Below are positions 10,724 through 42,163 of a DNA stretch of 64,000 nucleotides, piece after piece. The first letter of the stretch is position 1. Every line of letters begins with the position of its first letter. The notes below the pieces were generated by a model. That model saw only the letters and a list, made by a program, of their open reading frames with translations. It was not told where the DNA came from and did no database searches. Position numbers and translations under genes: made by a program. This DNA comes from Armatimonas rosea (GTDB lineage Bacteria; Armatimonadota; Armatimonadia; Armatimonadales; Armatimonadaceae), in contig NZ_JACHGW010000006.1 in assembly GCF_014202505.1 (NCBI RefSeq), positions 124,001 through 188,000 of the forward strand, given 5' to 3'.

Positions 10724-10802
10724 AGTAGCTCCCTCCATTGTAAAGCGTTAGTATAGTATACAATAGAGTGTGTACACTTTGCCAATAACCCTCTCCTCCT
10801 AG

Positions 10803-10947
10803 ATGGGCAGTGTGTACCGAGGTATGGTAAGTCTTTTCTAAAGCATGGGCAGCTCGCCGCTACGATGGGCCGACTACCCCGTGACATAAAGAGACCACCC
10901 CGAGGCATGGGAAGAACGCCGGTGACATGGGCTGACTACCCGACAAC
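10803..10947. repeat. Degenerate 20-21-bp tandem repeat, seven units
   Basis: Units start at 10803, 10824, 10845, 10865, 10886, 10907 and 10927. Most begin ATGGG, and many end in a CCCCG/CCG-GAC or GAGGC pattern (for example ATGGGCCGACTACCCCGTGAC and ATGGGCTGACTACCCGACAAC). The period of ~21 bp is two helical turns. The block is non-coding and AT-flanked, lying between the 10040-10723 gene and the sigma-linked membrane protein gene. Too degenerate and lacking spacers to be CRISPR. Confidence 0.65.
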
Positions 10948-10972
10948 TTAAAGTGCCTAATATTTTATTTAA

Positions 10973-11803
10973 CTAAGGATGTTGGCCCACTGTATACTGT
11001 TTAACTTGTTCGGTAAGTAATTTCCAATAGTCAGGTTGGTAGGTAGATGGTCTGCCATTACTATTAGTCCACGTTGTCTCCGTGCGCTTTGCATCTTTGG
11101 GAAAATCCACCCAGAACACGGAGTCAGGTATGTGTACACTTGTCTCCACCTCCATTTGTGATTTCCCCTTGTCTAACTCTTTAATTTGAATGACCAACTC
11201 CGTCTCTGGATCATAATAATAATTCTTTGATCCTATACGGGCAACACGTAGCTGCTTTCCATATTTAAACTCTGTTGGGCGGTTATCACGGGTGCGAAAT
11301 AGCAATATAGGAATTGTGTTTATGGCAATTGTTTTATATCTTTCGTATGGTGAAACTTTTATCTCTGGCATGTGAGTTATTGTCACGGTATTTAGCGATT
11401 TGTTATAACTAAAGTTAGTGTGATCTGCGTAAATGTCGATAGTTTCTAGTCTTCCTTCCATGTCGAGAGTATTAGTCCTGATCTTACCGCCTCTGTGCCA
11501 GCTTTCAAGACGTAAGACCCGTTCCGCTTTTTGTCTATTAGTGCTGGACAGATTGTATAGGTACAAGCGGGTATGATAGCCCACTGGAGCGAGGTTTTGT
11601 TTGGCAATCTTGAGCGCTGTTGGGACATTGTGCCCGATCCATAAAACTGCGAACACGGCAAAGATGTGGCGGAACTTGAGCTTGTAGCCGGTGACGGTCG
11701 GGGTGAGGGGGGTGAGGTTCTCGATGCGCTGGCTTAGCTCCGGACGGACAGGCTCGGTGGGGAAGGCGGCTTGGAGAGACTGGGTTTGCTCAGGCTCGGT
11801 CAT
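10973..11803 (-). CDS. Probable anti-sigma-type membrane protein
   Basis: 276 residues: a cytoplasmic N-terminal ~45 residues, one membrane helix (about 48-65, IFAVFAVLWIGHNVPTALKI) and a ~200-residue beta-rich extracytoplasmic domain. Its ATG overlaps the TGA of the ECF sigma gene (ATGA at 11800-11803), the usual arrangement for a sigma factor and its membrane anti-sigma partner. No HxxxCxxC zinc motif is visible, so it is not a classic ZAS-type anti-sigma factor, and the role is inferred from topology and coupling. Oddity: the part encoding the outer domain (about 10970-11680) is distinctly AT-rich, while the N-terminal part matches its GC-rich neighbours, suggesting a chimeric origin. Confidence 0.65.
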   Translation of the reverse strand: MTEPEQTQSLQAAFPTEPVRPELSQRIENLTPLTPTVTGYKLKFRHIFAVFAVLWIGHNVPTALKIAKQNLAPVGYHTRLYLYNLSSTNRQKAERVLRLESWHRGGKIRTNTLDMEGRLETIDIYADHTNFSYNKSLNTVTITHMPEIKVSPYERYKTIAINTIPILLFRTRDNRPTEFKYGKQLRVARIGSKNYYYDPETELVIQIKELDKGKSQMEVETSVHIPDSVFWVDFPKDAKRTETTWTNSNGRPSTYQPDYWKLLTEQVKQYTVGQHP

Positions 11804-12381
11804 GGGGTGGACTCCTCGGGGAGAAAGTGGGCGGCGGTGCGCGCAAAGACCGTGGCGCGGGCGCGCTGGATGAGGCTATTGACGGCGGCTTCGGACTTGC
11901 CCAGCACGGTGCCGATCTCGGGCATGGTGAGGCCATCGACATACTTCAGGAGCAGGGCGTCGCGCTGGTTGGGCGGAAGCGCAAGCACGGCACGCCGGAG
12001 CTGGAGCGCGTCCTCGGCACGGAGCGCGTGTGCCTCGGGGGTGGGGGCGCTGTCGGGCGGCTCGGGGAGGGACTCGACCAGGCTCTCGCGGCGGCGGTAG
12101 CGCTTGCGGTGCAGGTCGGCGACCTTGCGGCGGGCGATCCCTAGGAGCCAGGCGCGGTGCAGGGACGCATCGGCGGGGCAGCGGGCCACCGACGAAAACG
12201 CGGCGGCGAAGGTCTCGGCGGTCGCGTCCTCGGCATCGTCGCGGGTGGGAAGCCGCCGCCGTGCAAAGTCAAAGACCGTGGCGAGGTGGGCGTCGCGGAG
12301 CTGGACAACCACCGCGCTATCTGCGGGCGGCGACGAGCGCGCAAAACTACGAAAGGGGCGCCGGAGCAAGAGCTGGTTCAC
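11800..12381 (-). CDS. ECF RNA polymerase sigma factor
   Basis: 193 residues. Region 2 is around FARRRLPTRDDAEDATAETFAAAF (the D-A-E-D core-binding helix), followed by AWLLGIARRKVADLHRKR. Region 4 is a helix-turn-helix, LPPNQRDALLLKYVDGLTMPEIG then SEAAVNSLIQRARA. This is the two-domain ECF layout lacking regions 1 and 3. GTG 12379-12381 gives the full-length product. The membrane protein gene overlaps its stop by 4 nt and probably controls it. The signal and regulon cannot be read from the window. Confidence 0.85.
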   Translation of the reverse strand: MNQLLLRRPFRSFARSSPPADSAVVVQLRDAHLATVFDFARRRLPTRDDAEDATAETFAAAFSSVARCPADASLHRAWLLGIARRKVADLHRKRYRRRESLVESLPEPPDSAPTPEAHALRAEDALQLRRAVLALPPNQRDALLLKYVDGLTMPEIGTVLGKSEAAVNSLIQRARATVFARTAAHFLPEESTP

Positions 12382-34068: not shown

Positions 34069-37039
<2,971 letters not shown>

Positions 37040-37055
37040 TTACCATGAAGCGTCC

Positions 37056-38186
37056 TTAAACTCCTTGAATCCCCAGCATTCCGGAAAGGATCGCCTCTGC
37101 TTGGTGTGGATATTGTGTGAAGTGCGCCTCTAACGCCTCCGCAGTCACAGCCCCGACCGCGCTTGCTGCCTCGGGGTTAGCCAGTCGGTTCTTGGTCGGC
37201 CCCTCAAACTGCGGATTGCGCACCCGAACCGAGATCACCACGGCAACTCCCAGCCCGGCCTTGCGCGGCTCGAACTCCCGCCCATGCGCTCGTGCCCACC
37301 TCCCGAGGGTTCGCGCGACCGCCTGCCGAAACCCCGTGAGCGGTGTCCCCGCATCGGGGAGCTCGACCCCATTGCCAAAGATGCGCCACACGGGCTCGTC
37401 CTCGGTGAAGAAAAACGCCACCTCGGCCTCGGTGCCGTCTTTGGTGCCAGAGCCCGCGATCACGGTCTCGTGCACCGGCCGTCGCCCCGCCACGTTCTCG
37501 ATTGCCCACTCCGAGATGCCGCCGGGGAAGTGGAGCACCTGCGGATCACAGCCCAGGGCTTCATCGGTGAAGGTGACCGTGAGCTGGGGATAGAGGAACG
37601 CCTGCTGGCGCAAGTTCGCCAGCAGCCGCTCGACAGACCATTCTGTCGTGGAGAAAATCTCCGGGTCGGGTTTAAAGCGAATCTGCGTCCCGCTGGGGCC
37701 ATTAAAAGCGCTCTCGCGCTCCGACACCAGCTCGCCCCGCTCCGTCCGAATCACCACCTCGCGCCCCGCCTGCCAGACCGTCGTCTCCATCCATTCGGCC
37801 AGAGCGCAGACACAGCAGGTTCCGACGCCGTGCAAGCCACCACCAACACGAAATGTCGTCTCTACTTTGGAGAACTTACCTCGGTAATGAAGCTCCATGA
37901 GCACCGCTTTCAGCGTCTCTAGGGGAATTCCCCGACCACTGTCGCGAACACTCAGGCTGCCATCTGTGTGGAGAGTCACCTCGATCTGGTTACAGTGCCC
38001 TGCAACAGCCTCATTGACACCGTTATCCACTAACTCCTTAAAGAGGTGGTGCATTCCTGGAATGCCTGTGTTGCCGATATACATTGCGGGACGGTAGCGG
38101 ACGGCTTCCAGTCCAACGAGTTTGACCAGAACGACATCCGTGTAATCTGCTTCAATCTTCTTGATCTTTGGAGTGACTTCTTCCAT
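37056..38186 (-). CDS. Stand-alone GyrB-like ATPase-transducer protein lacking TOPRIM
   Basis: 376 residues from ATG 38184-38186 (AAAGG 7 nt upstream). Aligns to the first ~390 residues of GyrB: LEAVRYRPAMYIGNT, KELVDNGVNEAVAGHC (catalytic Glu51 and Asn55 kept; the Asp of the DE pair is Asn58), RDSGRGIP (Asp82), [12 protein letters not shown] lid, and transducer FEGPTKNRLANPE (switch Lys332 kept, Gln to Pro). It ends at the normal ATPase-transducer boundary, with no EGDSA or DxD TOPRIM motif, and the ATP-lid loop is rewritten. Frame and domains are intact, so not a decaying pseudogene. It could dimerise with GyrB's N-gate and modulate gyrase, or be a separate GHKL switch; this is inference. 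Confidence 0.85.
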   Translation of the reverse strand: MEEVTPKIKKIEADYTDVVLVKLVGLEAVRYRPAMYIGNTGIPGMHHLFKELVDNGVNEAVAGHCNQIEVTLHTDGSLSVRDSGRGIPLETLKAVLMELHYRGKFSKVETTFRVGGGLHGVGTCCVCALAEWMETTVWQAGREVVIRTERGELVSERESAFNGPSGTQIRFKPDPEIFSTTEWSVERLLANLRQQAFLYPQLTVTFTDEALGCDPQVLHFPGGISEWAIENVAGRRPVHETVIAGSGTKDGTEAEVAFFFTEDEPVWRIFGNGVELPDAGTPLTGFRQAVARTLGRWARAHGREFEPRKAGLGVAVVISVRVRNPQFEGPTKNRLANPEAASAVGAVTAEALEAHFTQYPHQAEAILSGMLGIQGV

Positions 38187-38261
38187 GTGAAAGCCTTTCA
38201 ATAATTAGTCTGAATCTGTCAATGGCTAACAGAATATTCTATCAGAATTGCGACTTTTTCG

Positions 38262-38296
38262 CCCGTTTTCGCCGATTTCCAATCGGCGAAAACGGG
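38262..38296. promoter_or_regulatory. Perfect 16-bp palindrome abutting a -10 element
   Basis: CCCGTTTTCGCCGATT (38262-38277), TCC, then the exact complement (38281-38296). TAGAAT follows directly at 38297-38302, 9 nt before ATG 38312, so the palindrome covers the -35/spacer region: an operator position. It lies between the GyrB-like gene and the NAGPA gene, 75 nt from the GyrB-like start. A second small palindrome AGAATATTCT is at 38231-38240. T-runs lie on the wrong side for a terminator. Confidence 0.6.
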
Positions 38297-38311: not shown

Positions 38312-40024
38312 ATGTTTACGCCTCTGGTTGCCTTTGTGGCACTTTTCTGTGTCTCCGCTCCCGCTGTCAAGAAGAAAGTGGTGGTGCGACAGCTCGCGCC
38401 GGGGGTGGAGCTACTGCAAGAGGTGACCCCAAGCGGCGACAAAGACGGGCCGCTGGTGGTGACAACGGTGCGGATCGACCCGAAGGTAAAGGGGGTGCGG
38501 GTCGAGGCGGCGCTGGGCGGCGGTGGGGTCTGGGCCAACGATGCGACCCTGGGACGAGAGATTCCCTCCAAGACCGTCGCGCGGCGCAAGGCGGTCGCGG
38601 GGATCAATGCGGGCTTTTTTCCCTTCGCGGGCAATCCCATCGGGCTGCACGTGGAGAACGGCGAGCTGGTAACCGAGCCGGGCCTGCCACGCACCGCATT
38701 TGTGCTCCTTGATGACGGTACGGTCTCGTTTCCACGGTTCTCATTTGAGGGGACGGTCAACGGGGGGGCGCTCCAGGGCCTCAACCGGAAGCCAGGAAAA
38801 GGCAACGAGCTGCTGCTCTTTACCCCGATCTTCGCGGACAAGACTCTCAAGACAGACGGGCGCGTTGAAGTGATTGTCGAGGGCGTGCCCCTGCCGCTCA
38901 AGCTCGGGTCAATCGTGACGGGGAAAGTTGCCGCGGTGCGTGAGGGCGGGCTGACTCCGCTGGCACCGGGGACTCTCGTGCTCTCGGCGGGTGGCGACTC
39001 GGTGGACTGGCTCAAGGGCTGGGCCAAGCCGGGCGAGGCGGTGACGATTGCGCTCAAAGCGACGCCGCTGGACCGAAAGCTGGACCCAAGCAAGATCCTT
39101 CAGGCAGTGACTGGCTCAGGGCGGCTCCTGGCAGGCGGCAAGTTTGCGCTGGACCTGAAGGCGGAGAAGATCGGGGCGAGCTTCTCGACAACACGCCACC
39201 CACGCACCGCCGTCGGGGTGACCGCCGACGGAAAGTTGCTCTTTGTGACGGTAGATGGGCGCCAGGCGAGCCTCTCCCGAGGTGCCTCCCTGACCGAGCT
39301 GGCAGGGATTATGCTGGCTCTGGGTGCAGTGGAGGCCGTGAACCTCGATGGCGGGGGCTCGTCGGCGTGCGCGGTTCGTGGCGCGGTTGCCAACTCGCCG
39401 TCGGAGGGAGTCGAGCGCCCGGTCGCCGATAGCCTGCTGGTCTTTGCGGAAGAGAGCTCGATGCCGCAGAGCGAGGTCGCCCTCCCCACACAGCCACAGG
39501 TGCTGACGGTCGGGGAGACCCGCTCCTTTCCCCTCCCCGAGGGCGTGGACTCGGCAAGTGTTGCGTGGACAGTCGCGGGTGGGATTGGCTTTGTCGATCA
39601 AGAGGGGAGCTTTCGCGCCCTTCGGGCAGGCAAGGGGGCACTGGTTCTCTGGCGCGGTACACAGGCGAGCCGCATCCCGCTCGTGGTGGTAAAGTCCGGT
39701 GCAAAGGCCACGCCCGAGCCCAAGCTGGACAACGCCGCGTTTGTCCCGCAGGCGGTGTTCAACGACGACGGGACCCAGCTGACAATCACGATAGCCAATA
39801 GCGAGGGGGACAAGCTAGGGAGCGAGGCGATTCAGCTCACCGTGACCGGTGGCACCGTCGTGTCAAACCCGGTGTCCACGGACTCTAGAGGCGTGGCGAG
39901 CGTGACAATTCAGTGGGACACGGCGACCGCCCCCGACGCGCGCCAGGTCAAGGTTTCGTCGCCGCTCAAGCGCTTCCAGAGCGTGATTGTGAAGCCTGCT
40001 AAAAAGCTGCCCACTCAAAAATGA
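38312..40024 (+). CDS. Secreted phosphodiester glycosidase (NAGPA-domain) protein
   Basis: 570 residues. N-terminal hydrophobic signal MFTPLVAFVALFCVSAPA, then the NAGPA domain with AVAGINAGFFPFAGNPIG, HPRTAVGVTADGKLLFVTVDGRQ and EAVNLDGGGSSACAVRG (conserved DGGGSS). From about residue 380 the protein continues with beta-sandwich, Ig-like segments (VAWTVAGGIGFVDQEGSF, EAIQLTVTGGTVVSNPVSTDSRG). Probably acts on phosphodiester-linked envelope glycans. Promoter TAGAAT at 38297 behind a 16-bp palindrome. Its 3' end overlaps the converging dehydrogenase gene by 26 nt. Confidence 0.8.
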   Translation: MFTPLVAFVALFCVSAPAVKKKVVVRQLAPGVELLQEVTPSGDKDGPLVVTTVRIDPKVKGVRVEAALGGGGVWANDATLGREIPSKTVARRKAVAGINAGFFPFAGNPIGLHVENGELVTEPGLPRTAFVLLDDGTVSFPRFSFEGTVNGGALQGLNRKPGKGNELLLFTPIFADKTLKTDGRVEVIVEGVPLPLKLGSIVTGKVAAVREGGLTPLAPGTLVLSAGGDSVDWLKGWAKPGEAVTIALKATPLDRKLDPSKILQAVTGSGRLLAGGKFALDLKAEKIGASFSTTRHPRTAVGVTADGKLLFVTVDGRQASLSRGASLTELAGIMLALGAVEAVNLDGGGSSACAVRGAVANSPSEGVERPVADSLLVFAEESSMPQSEVALPTQPQVLTVGETRSFPLPEGVDSASVAWTVAGGIGFVDQEGSFRALRAGKGALVLWRGTQASRIPLVVVKSGAKATPEPKLDNAAFVPQAVFNDDGTQLTITIANSEGDKLGSEAIQLTVTGGTVVSNPVSTDSRGVASVTIQWDTATAPDARQVKVSSPLKRFQSVIVKPAKKLPTQK

Positions 40025-40994
40025 CGGTCTGAATCCCTGAGTGACGGTCGCGGAGGAGCTCGTAGGCTTTGGGGGCTTCCTCGGTGGGAAGGGTCAGGCT
40101 GGCGAGATCGCGCACCACGAGCTTCTTCTGCTCGATCAGCTCCAGCGCCTGCCGGATATCGTCGCGGCGGGCATCACGAGGAATGAGAAACGTCACCTCG
40201 TTCTGGAAGGCAGACTGGTAGGGCAGGGTCAGGTCGCCGGGGTAGCTTCCCTGGATCAGGTAGCGTGTCCCCTGGATATCGAACTCGTCCCAGGCAACAC
40301 TCCGGGCCAGAGTCAGTGCCTCGGTGAGGACACTGGCCACCCCTGTGGTGTCCACTATAATGCTGGCCCCGTCGGGCAGGAGGGTAAGTAGCTGCTCGAA
40401 GAGGTCGTCGCCGGCGATGATCTCCAGCCCGAGCTTGGAGAGAGCATCCGTCCCGAGCCCGAAGTAGTCCACCCCAATCACGCGGACCCCTTGCTGGATA
40501 TAGAGCCGCGCCGTGAGAATGCCAACCGGCCCCAGCCCGATCACCACCACCACCTCACCCACCTGCGGGCGCGCAAGCTGCATCCCTCGGTTGGAGATTG
40601 CGGCCAGACGCGCGAGGGGCGCGTCGCGAAGGGGGACCCCGAGAGGAAGGGGGATGGTCTCTGACGCCCGACGAACCGCGTGCCCGATATGCCCGCCCCA
40701 GCAGCGCTCTTGGCCCGCGACACGGCTGGTGCCGCTACAAAAGACACGGGTTCCCGGAAGAATCCCCGCCTCCTCACCGCTCTCGACGACAATTCCGGTG
40801 AGGGCGTAGCCGGGGATAAGCGGGAACTTCGAGGCGGCGGGGTGTTGCCCGGAGAGGACGCGCATCTCAACACCAGGGCTGATGCACGTAAACGATGTCT
40901 TAATCAGCACCTCGTCGGGCTCTGGCTCGGGAACCTCGACCGTGCGAACCTCAACCACTCCCGGACTGGGGAAGACAACCGCTCTCGTTTTCAT
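39999..40994 (-). CDS. Zinc-type medium-chain dehydrogenase/reductase
   Basis: 331 residues from ATG 40992-40994, which overlaps the TGA of the MFS gene. GroES-like N-terminal domain (VEVPEPEPDEVLIKTSFTCISPGVEMRVLSG, GYALTGIVVESG) and a Rossmann domain with VVVIGLGPVGILTA. The usual catalytic-zinc Cys in the N-terminal CISPG stretch is present, but the structural four-Cys lobe is absent. Resembles alcohol-dehydrogenase-like proteins acting on sugars or polyols. Cotranscribed with an MFS transporter, suggesting uptake and oxidation of one compound. Confidence 0.82.
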   Translation of the reverse strand: MKTRAVVFPSPGVVEVRTVEVPEPEPDEVLIKTSFTCISPGVEMRVLSGQHPAASKFPLIPGYALTGIVVESGEEAGILPGTRVFCSGTSRVAGQERCWGGHIGHAVRRASETIPLPLGVPLRDAPLARLAAISNRGMQLARPQVGEVVVVIGLGPVGILTARLYIQQGVRVIGVDYFGLGTDALSKLGLEIIAGDDLFEQLLTLLPDGASIIVDTTGVASVLTEALTLARSVAWDEFDIQGTRYLIQGSYPGDLTLPYQSAFQNEVTFLIPRDARRDDIRQALELIEQKKLVVRDLASLTLPTEEAPKAYELLRDRHSGIQTVIFEWAAF

Positions 40995-42163
40995 GATTTC
41001 TTTTCCCTGGGTAGGAGTAGCATGGCGACTAGTGCTCCACCGGCTCCTACCCAAAACGGTGCCGACGGGGAGACTCTCTCGTAGAGTAGCCCTGCCAAGA
41101 GGCTTGCCGGAAGCGCTCCGAGCCCGACAACCAGATGAAAGACCCCAAGCTGCTGCCCGCGTGCGTTCGGGTCCGAGAGATCCGCAGCGAGTGCCTTCTG
41201 TGCCCCTTGCGTGAGGGTGTAGTAGAGCCCGTAGAGAAGAAAGAGCCCGAGCACTCCCGAAAATCCTAGACCACCGGGAAGCAGGGCGAACCCGGCATAG
41301 ACCAGAGCAAAGACTCCCCAGCCCGCCAAGATCAGCGGCACCCGCCCGATCTTGTCCGACCGCTTACCCACAATATAGCCTAAGCTTGCCTCGACGACAT
41401 TAAACAGGGCATAGACCAGTAGTATATTTTGCGGCGAGAGGCCCGCTCCCTCCTGTGCGCGCAGAAGCAGGAACTGGTCCGACGAGTTCGAGAGGCTAAA
41501 GATTCCCACCGCGAGCAGAAAGCGCTGGTAGGTGGGGGAGATTCCGCTGAGGGAGAAGCGGGGTACGGTCTTATTCGCTGCCTCGCGACGGGGTTGCTCT
41601 TTGACGACAAGCCACAGGAGGAGAACACCAAGGACGGCCGGGATAAACGCGAGCCAATAGAGGGTGCGGAGCGACTCGGGGTGAGTGCGCAGATACCAGT
41701 AGCCGACCAAGGGGCCAAGCACTGCCCCCGTGGTATCGAGGCTGCGGTGCAGTCCATAGGCCCGGCCGCGTTGTTCTTTGGGGCAGATATCGGCGATGAG
41801 GGCATCGCGTGGGGCTCCGCGCAGGCCCTTACCGGTGCGGTCGAGTAGCCGTGCGCCGAGCACGAGGGGCCAGCCACCCGCGACTCCGATCAGCGGCTTT
41901 GAAAGGGCTGCCAAGCCGTACCCCAAGAGAGCCAGGGGTTTTCGCCGCCCCATCCGATCCGAGACAGTCCCTGAGTAGAGCTTGAGGGTACTGGCGGTCG
42001 CCTCCGCGAGCCCCTCAATCAGCCCCAGTGCCCACGCCGGAGCACCGAGGAGGCGAAGGAGCCGCCCATTGAGGGGATAGACCATCTCGCTGGAGAGGTC
42101 GGTGAGGAGGCTAACAAGCCCGAGCGCCTTGACGGTGGCGGGGAGGGGGCGCTCAGGGTCCAT
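40991..42163 (-). CDS. Major facilitator superfamily transporter
   Basis: 390 residues, about 12 membrane helices. The loop 2-3 signature SDRMGRRKPLALLGYG and the equivalent GKRSDKIGRVPLILAG in the second half mark an MFS fold; DRTGKGLRGAPRDALIAD is typical of a subgroup of putative drug/metabolite exporters. Start ATG 42161-42163 was chosen with TATACT 9 nt upstream; a GTG at 42172 touches the box and is unlikely. Overlaps the dehydrogenase start. Substrate unknown. Confidence 0.85.
   Translation of the reverse strand: MDPERPLPATVKALGLVSLLTDLSSEMVYPLNGRLLRLLGAPAWALGLIEGLAEATASTLKLYSGTVSDRMGRRKPLALLGYGLAALSKPLIGVAGGWPLVLGARLLDRTGKGLRGAPRDALIADICPKEQRGRAYGLHRSLDTTGAVLGPLVGYWYLRTHPESLRTLYWLAFIPAVLGVLLLWLVVKEQPRREAANKTVPRFSLSGISPTYQRFLLAVGIFSLSNSSDQFLLLRAQEGAGLSPQNILLVYALFNVVEASLGYIVGKRSDKIGRVPLILAGWGVFALVYAGFALLPGGLGFSGVLGLFLLYGLYYTLTQGAQKALAADLSDPNARGQQLGVFHLVVGLGALPASLLAGLLYERVSPSAPFWVGAGGALVAMLLLPREKKS

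Follow-up and report, generated by a model that had tools for sequence, protein, structure and literature searches.

A stand-alone GyrB-type ATPase-transducer protein encoded immediately upstream of gyrB in Armatimonas rosea

The DNA analysed here (64,000 nucleotides in all, hereafter the window) contains on its minus strand a gene for a stand-alone GyrB-type GHKL ATPase plus transducer protein, named PAR in this work, and a full-length gyrB gene that lies downstream of it on the same strand, 37 nt apart. The locus was compared with that of one other genome of the same genus (G001), whose gyrB is 94.8% identical. The following features are referred to in the text:

34955-37018, minus strand: gyrB, full length (687 aa, TTG start, all four GyrB domains), carrying the only GyrB C-terminus of the genome
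36900-37087, minus strand: stretch aligned without gaps to G001, from the last ten codons of PAR through the gyrB start
37026-37032, minus strand: GGGAGGA, Shine-Dalgarno sequence of gyrB, located by eye and conserved in G001
37037-37045, minus strand: TGGTAAAAT, extended -10-like motif ahead of gyrB, located by eye and conserved in G001
37056-38186, minus strand: PAR gene (GyrB-type GHKL ATPase plus transducer protein, 376 aa; stop codon at 37056-37058)
37059-37087, minus strand: PAR tail SGMLGIQGV, outside the GyrB homology; equivalent DNA (ISGMLLKTGV*) is present in G001, which has no PAR gene
38226-38245: imperfect palindrome found by a search tool, enclosing TGATAGAAT
38236-38244, minus strand: TGATAGAAT, extended -10-like motif upstream of PAR, located by eye
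38262-38296 (strand not applicable): perfect inverted repeat of 16 bp (loop of 3 nt) in the region that separates PAR from the divergent NAGPA-domain gene
38312-40024, plus strand: NAGPA-domain (phosphodiester glycosidase) gene, divergent from PAR; its counterpart abuts gyrB in G001

A consensus promoter scanner returned no promoter at the TGGTAAAAT or TGATAGAAT sites. Since gyrB has a TGGTAAAAT motif and a Shine-Dalgarno sequence of its own downstream of the PAR stop codon, it perhaps need not rely on read-through from PAR. The 16-bp inverted repeat is present as a single copy in the genome, and its RNA fold gave a z-score of -4.85. NAGPA-domain genes flank gyrB on both sides (34069-35088, minus strand, and 38312-40024, plus strand), and in several genomes of the order gyrB is likewise followed by a relative of the downstream one. 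An alcohol-dehydrogenase-like gene (39999-41054, minus strand) lies between the NAGPA and MFS genes, and G001 was found to have no counterpart there.

The PAR reading frame spans 376 codons from an ATG (381 from an in-frame TTG upstream, at 38201) and contains no internal stops, as had been described in the earlier note for an intact 376-residue protein. Pfam searches identified HATPase_c (residues 44-174) and the transducer domain DNA_gyraseB (residues 223-370) and nothing else of weight; Toprim and GyrB_C domains were absent, which bears out the reported combination of ATPase and transducer without TOPRIM. PAR is 42–43% identical to the product of the adjacent full-length gyrB (phmmer E ~1e-76). 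Homology to GyrB stops at about residue 368 (...EAIL) and is followed by a native stop, so that the protein does end at the usual domain boundary, as had been claimed. In the order and boundary of its GHKL and transducer domains PAR resembles the 43-kDa fragment of GyrB, whereas it differs from the whole GyrB (TIGR01059; PF02518+PF00204+PF01751+PF00986) in lacking TOPRIM and the C-terminal domain; its score against the curated GyrB equivalog TIGR01059 was 262.7 bits, below the cut-off of 882.4. PAR matched no defence protein among the PADLOC anti-phage models.

Alignment to GyrB proteins indicated that the ATP pocket of PAR is kept (Glu51, Asn55, Asp82, Lys104, LHGVG at 118-122 and Lys332), the catalytic Glu, the Mg-binding Asn and the DxGxG motif of the GHKL ATPase domain all being present. 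The Tyr of the N-terminal arm (Tyr15) and the switch Lys of the transducer (Lys332) are retained as well, and in all these residues PAR is like the 43-kDa fragment. It differs from GyrB in the QTK loop, where Gln is replaced by Pro330 ('PTK'), in the 'DE' pair, which reads 'NE' (D58N), and in the ATP-lid region, which is 8 residues shorter and carries the changes G102R and Y112F. Glu51, Asn55, Asp82, LHGVG and Lys332 had been listed before as kept, and the lid loop, DE and QTK as changed; the alignment agrees on each of them.

The truncation itself, and nothing more, speaks for an artefact or for one half of a split topoisomerase, an explanation that we regard as extremely improbable. The genome (6.3 Mb, 98% complete) contains two matches to the PAR protein, namely PAR itself and gyrB. 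One GyrB C-terminal domain (that of gyrB) and one GyrA-type subunit, encoded on another contig, were found, and neither a second GyrB_C or TOPRIM half nor a topoisomerase IV was detected in this genome. A TOPRIM part displaced downstream by a frameshift, which the earlier note had named as the observation that would overturn its reading, is thus ruled out within the limits of this 98%-complete assembly: GyrB_C is single, and gyrB itself begins 37 nt downstream of PAR. Moreover, the GyrB homology of PAR ends cleanly in its native stop, and the DNA containing this stop recurs in G001. Given a single GyrA-type match and a single GyrB C-terminus, gyrase is the only type IIA topoisomerase seen in this genome.

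In G001 the DUF885, MFS and NAGPA genes are found in the same order, the NAGPA gene adjoins gyrB and PAR is missing. Nevertheless, the intergenic DNA of G001 aligns without gaps from the last ten codons of PAR (TTTCCGGAATGCTG...GGAGTTTAA) into gyrB, and in the PAR frame it reads ISGMLLKTGV*, compared with LSGMLGIQGV* in PAR. This homologous stretch starts where the GyrB homology of PAR ends. Two readings fit this arrangement: either PAR was deleted in G001 and the gyrB leader was spared, or a partial copy of gyrB was fused into an existing leader, which would have provided the tail and the stop codon. An origin of PAR before the split of the two genomes, with later loss in G001, appears the more likely order, because dN between PAR and gyrB is 0.59 and gyrB has accumulated only 0.03 since the split. 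Synonymous distances, which are near saturation, agree with an origin before the split. The conservation of the truncated gene next to gyrB that had been proposed as a check was not observed, since the same-genus genome is devoid of the gene and the other GyrB-like genes limited to the N-terminal half (hereafter N-only) lie elsewhere.

In order to evaluate the constraint on PAR, column conservation was scored on 39 full-length GyrBs. PAR retains 47 of the 65 invariant columns (72%) and 24 of the 125 weakly conserved ones (19%). When divergence to the identity of PAR was simulated neutrally, using a simple substitution scheme with no indels, the frame stayed open in 0 of 1000 runs, with a mean of 8.7 stops. 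A comparison of dN/dS had also been suggested, and it gave values under 1 for PAR: about 0.46 against its own gyrB (dN 0.59, dS 1.26) and 0.31 against that of G001 (dN 0.59, dS 1.91), with dS near saturation in both cases. Between the gyrB genes of the two same-genus genomes the value was 0.033 (dN 0.030, dS 0.91). Constraint on PAR is relaxed rather than absent; weakened purifying selection would have spared its ATP pocket and N-terminal arm. An unlikely alternative is that PAR is a partial tandem duplicate without function, drifting toward loss and already lost in the same-genus relative; the ten-codon scar in G001, the long branch of PAR (1.77), a dN/dS roughly tenfold above that of gyrB and the sporadic presence of such genes are all in line with it. 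However, a dN/dS well under 1, a frame still open at 42–43% identity and the selective retention of invariant ATP-pocket columns would together require long-lasting selection. Absence from relatives with signs of decay had been put forward as evidence against a genuine gene; PAR is absent from the one same-genus genome compared, but the copy in the window shows no decay.

The source of PAR was addressed by comparing it with the GyrBs of 19 lineages. Private residues common to PAR and the GyrB of the Armatimonas lineage amounted to 14 of 62 (0.23), the highest value of the 19, which favours an origin of PAR by duplication of its own lineage's gyrB. In the tree the long branch did not pin the source lineage, and the AU test rejected neither the grouping of PAR with its own GyrB (p 0.29) nor that with the GyrBs of the family (p 0.38), nor some other placements. 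Gene conversion between PAR and its own gyrB was also considered; third-position identity was slightly raised in two windows, a signal too weak for it to be claimed.

Truncated GyrB-like proteins were present in 5 of the 19 genomes of the order, that of PAR included. The others are:

L012, 415 aa: N-only, in a genome of the same family (G008), not beside gyrB
L013, 341 aa: truncated GyrB-like gene within the order
L011, 229 aa: ATPase part only, within the order
L063, 384 aa: truncated GyrB-like gene within the order

Outside the order, no truncated GyrB-like gene was found among the matches listed in a phylum-wide search of 291 genomes (one query, with few candidates per genome scored at first look) nor in a closer look at those genomes that gave two matches. 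In the search for close PAR orthologs, the scan of genome contigs gave only four ordinary GyrB-like loci and that of viral contigs none, and tblastn with PAR against phages and plasmids gave no match above 60% identity. The same ATPase plus transducer architecture, with native stops, was found in 10 proteins of about 384–396 aa from Streptomyces and Kitasatospora plasmids (e.g. WP_331746379.1), annotated as 'ATP-binding protein' or 'DNA gyrase subunit B'. A further example is PDB 3cwv, which we take to be from Myxococcus xanthus; it was deposited as 'DNA gyrase, B subunit, truncated' and is similar to PAR in length (369 aa), although it is a weaker relative (phmmer E 6e-25) than the canonical GyrBs. 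PAR fits this class, with ATPase and transducer, a native stop at the 43-kDa boundary and a full-length GyrB elsewhere in the genome. The earlier remark that no standard gyrase component has this architecture is correct for characterised components, but such N-halves are known in databases (3cwv and the plasmid proteins) and recur in the order. Literature searches returned nothing relevant on truncated GyrB paralogs or 3cwv, and no function for such proteins was found.

The QTK Gln is present in 39/39 GyrBs and was lost in 14/14 N-only proteins with a transducer, PAR included. The Mg-binding Asn, also present in 39/39 GyrBs, is kept among the N-only proteins by PAR and L012 only, and the same two are the only ones with a complete ATP pocket; unlike PAR, the plasmid proteins, which make up a set of their own, lack this Asn in 10/10 cases and several of them lack LHGVG residues. 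Because of the restricted retention of the Mg-binding Asn, PAR would belong to an ATP-competent minority of the N-only proteins. L012, which like PAR has the complete pocket and no QTK Gln, was truncated independently: it nests firmly in its own GyrB lineage (support 100/97), and a tree uniting PAR, L012 and the plasmid proteins in one clade was rejected (p-AU 0.0017). GyrB was therefore truncated to its N-half more than once, and the N-only proteins represent a recurring architecture and not a single family.

Several observations were made on the surroundings of other N-only genes. In genome G020 the end of a SUKH/Imm11-like gene is overlapped by a degenerate N-only gene that has neither the catalytic Glu nor the Mg-binding Asn (L109:9685-10839 and 10767-11897, minus strand); a general immunity-cluster context is not claimed from this one neighbourhood, where the other genes are mixed. 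On one plasmid an SMI1/KNR4 gene lies a few kb from the N-only gene. The Streptomyces linear plasmid NZ_CP108701.1 carries an N-only GyrB-like gene near each end (L093 and L101), adjoining terminal genes that are duplicated; the two N-only copies have diverged from each other. In G008 the frame of the full-length GyrB (L105:4195-7605, minus strand) encodes 1136 aa, with an intein-splicing domain inside TOPRIM.

An AlphaFold2 model of PAR, built on a 6-sequence alignment, displayed a GHKL domain followed by a transducer (pLDDT 76.5, pTM 0.74), the low-confidence parts being the arm (1-24), the lid (100-119), the QTK loop (328-331) and the tail. The best matches of this model in the PDB, as determined with Foldseek, were GyrB fragments of 43–47 kDa. 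Tyr5 of E. coli GyrB, whose counterpart in PAR is Tyr15, presumably reaches the nucleotide of the partner subunit. In the GyrB43 dimer the N-terminal brace of one protomer lies over the nucleotide of the other, and isolated GyrB43 is ATPase-competent only when dimeric (PMC4159350).

Our leading proposal, which is put forward tentatively, is that PAR may be an ATP-gated GyrB fragment that modulates gyrase, a natural counterpart of the 43-kDa fragment. PAR would most likely have arisen when part of its own lineage's gyrB was duplicated and the copy came to lie immediately ahead of that gene, with its last codons and stop read out of the gyrB leader, and would then have diverged under weakened purifying selection that left the ATP pocket and N-terminal arm in place. 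Once expressed, it would bind ATP and use the N-gate surface to form dimers, either homodimers or transient ones with GyrB. Without a TOPRIM with which to reach GyrA, PAR could not join GyrA, and N-gates mixed from PAR and GyrB would be unproductive and pass no DNA; such gates might serve as a brake or buffer that acts on gyrase in an ATP-dependent manner. The formation of mixed N-gates with GyrB, one of the options named in the earlier note, would be the most likely function of PAR. Several considerations go against this proposal. ATP hydrolysis by PAR may be poor, given the Pro in place of the QTK Gln and the shorter lid; the two tethered GyrB N-domains of A2B2 gyrase, at high local concentration, disfavour a free intruder; the Mg-binding Asn is missing from most other N-only proteins, and ATP need therefore not be involved in the action of the class as a whole; PAR is missing from the one same-genus genome compared; and the tree did not pin its source lineage.

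MutL and Hsp90 left gyrase biology from the same fold, and PAR might have done likewise, as a GHKL clamp or switch driven by ATP and working as a homodimer with a partner of its own, an explanation that we consider rather doubtful. Retention of the full ATP pocket and arm along with changes in the lid, the QTK Gln and many transducer positions would suit such a switch, as would the loss of the QTK Gln throughout the N-only proteins with a transducer and the location of other N-only genes away from gyrB, one of them overlapping the SUKH/Imm11-type immunity-like gene. However, gyrB is the sole conserved neighbour of PAR, no partner candidate was found, and both the shared private residues and the location tie PAR to gyrB.

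PAR could also be a shield or decoy of gyrase, titrating a toxin, an AMPylating enzyme or an aminocoumarin-like inhibitor of the GyrB ATPase domain; this seems quite improbable. According to a 2024 review, Fic toxins AMPylate Tyr109 of GyrB (PMC10886550); this residue is Tyr in 39/39 GyrBs and its equivalent in PAR is Phe112, and N-only proteins are sporadic and plasmid-borne, with one SUKH/Imm11 neighbour. Nevertheless, a decoy would be expected to retain the modified residue, L012 and several other N-only proteins keep Tyr or carry His, and no toxin or resistance gene was noted near PAR.

Beyond the modulation of gyrase proposed for PAR, it is conceivable, although unlikely, that bacteria repeatedly make trans-acting gyrase regulators from the ATPase-transducer half of GyrB; these would be ATP-sensing N-gate caps without TOPRIM and with the QTK Gln lost, and PAR would be an ATP-competent form whose gene immediately precedes that of its target. 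Proteins of this kind are already in databases as uncharacterised truncated GyrB, the architecture being uncommon but with precedent. The excerpt of the 2024 review that deals with protein inhibitors of gyrase mentions no GyrB fragment, and N-gate capping, if true, would be a mode absent from that text (PMC10886550). If PAR caps or poisons the N-gate of gyrase, it would represent a regulator built from the ATPase half of gyrase itself and a natural dominant-negative tool. Even without an effect on gyrase, the repeated truncation and the absence of the QTK Gln from every one of these proteins that has a transducer provide a testable statement on the role of this residue in an ATPase half no longer tied to strand passage.
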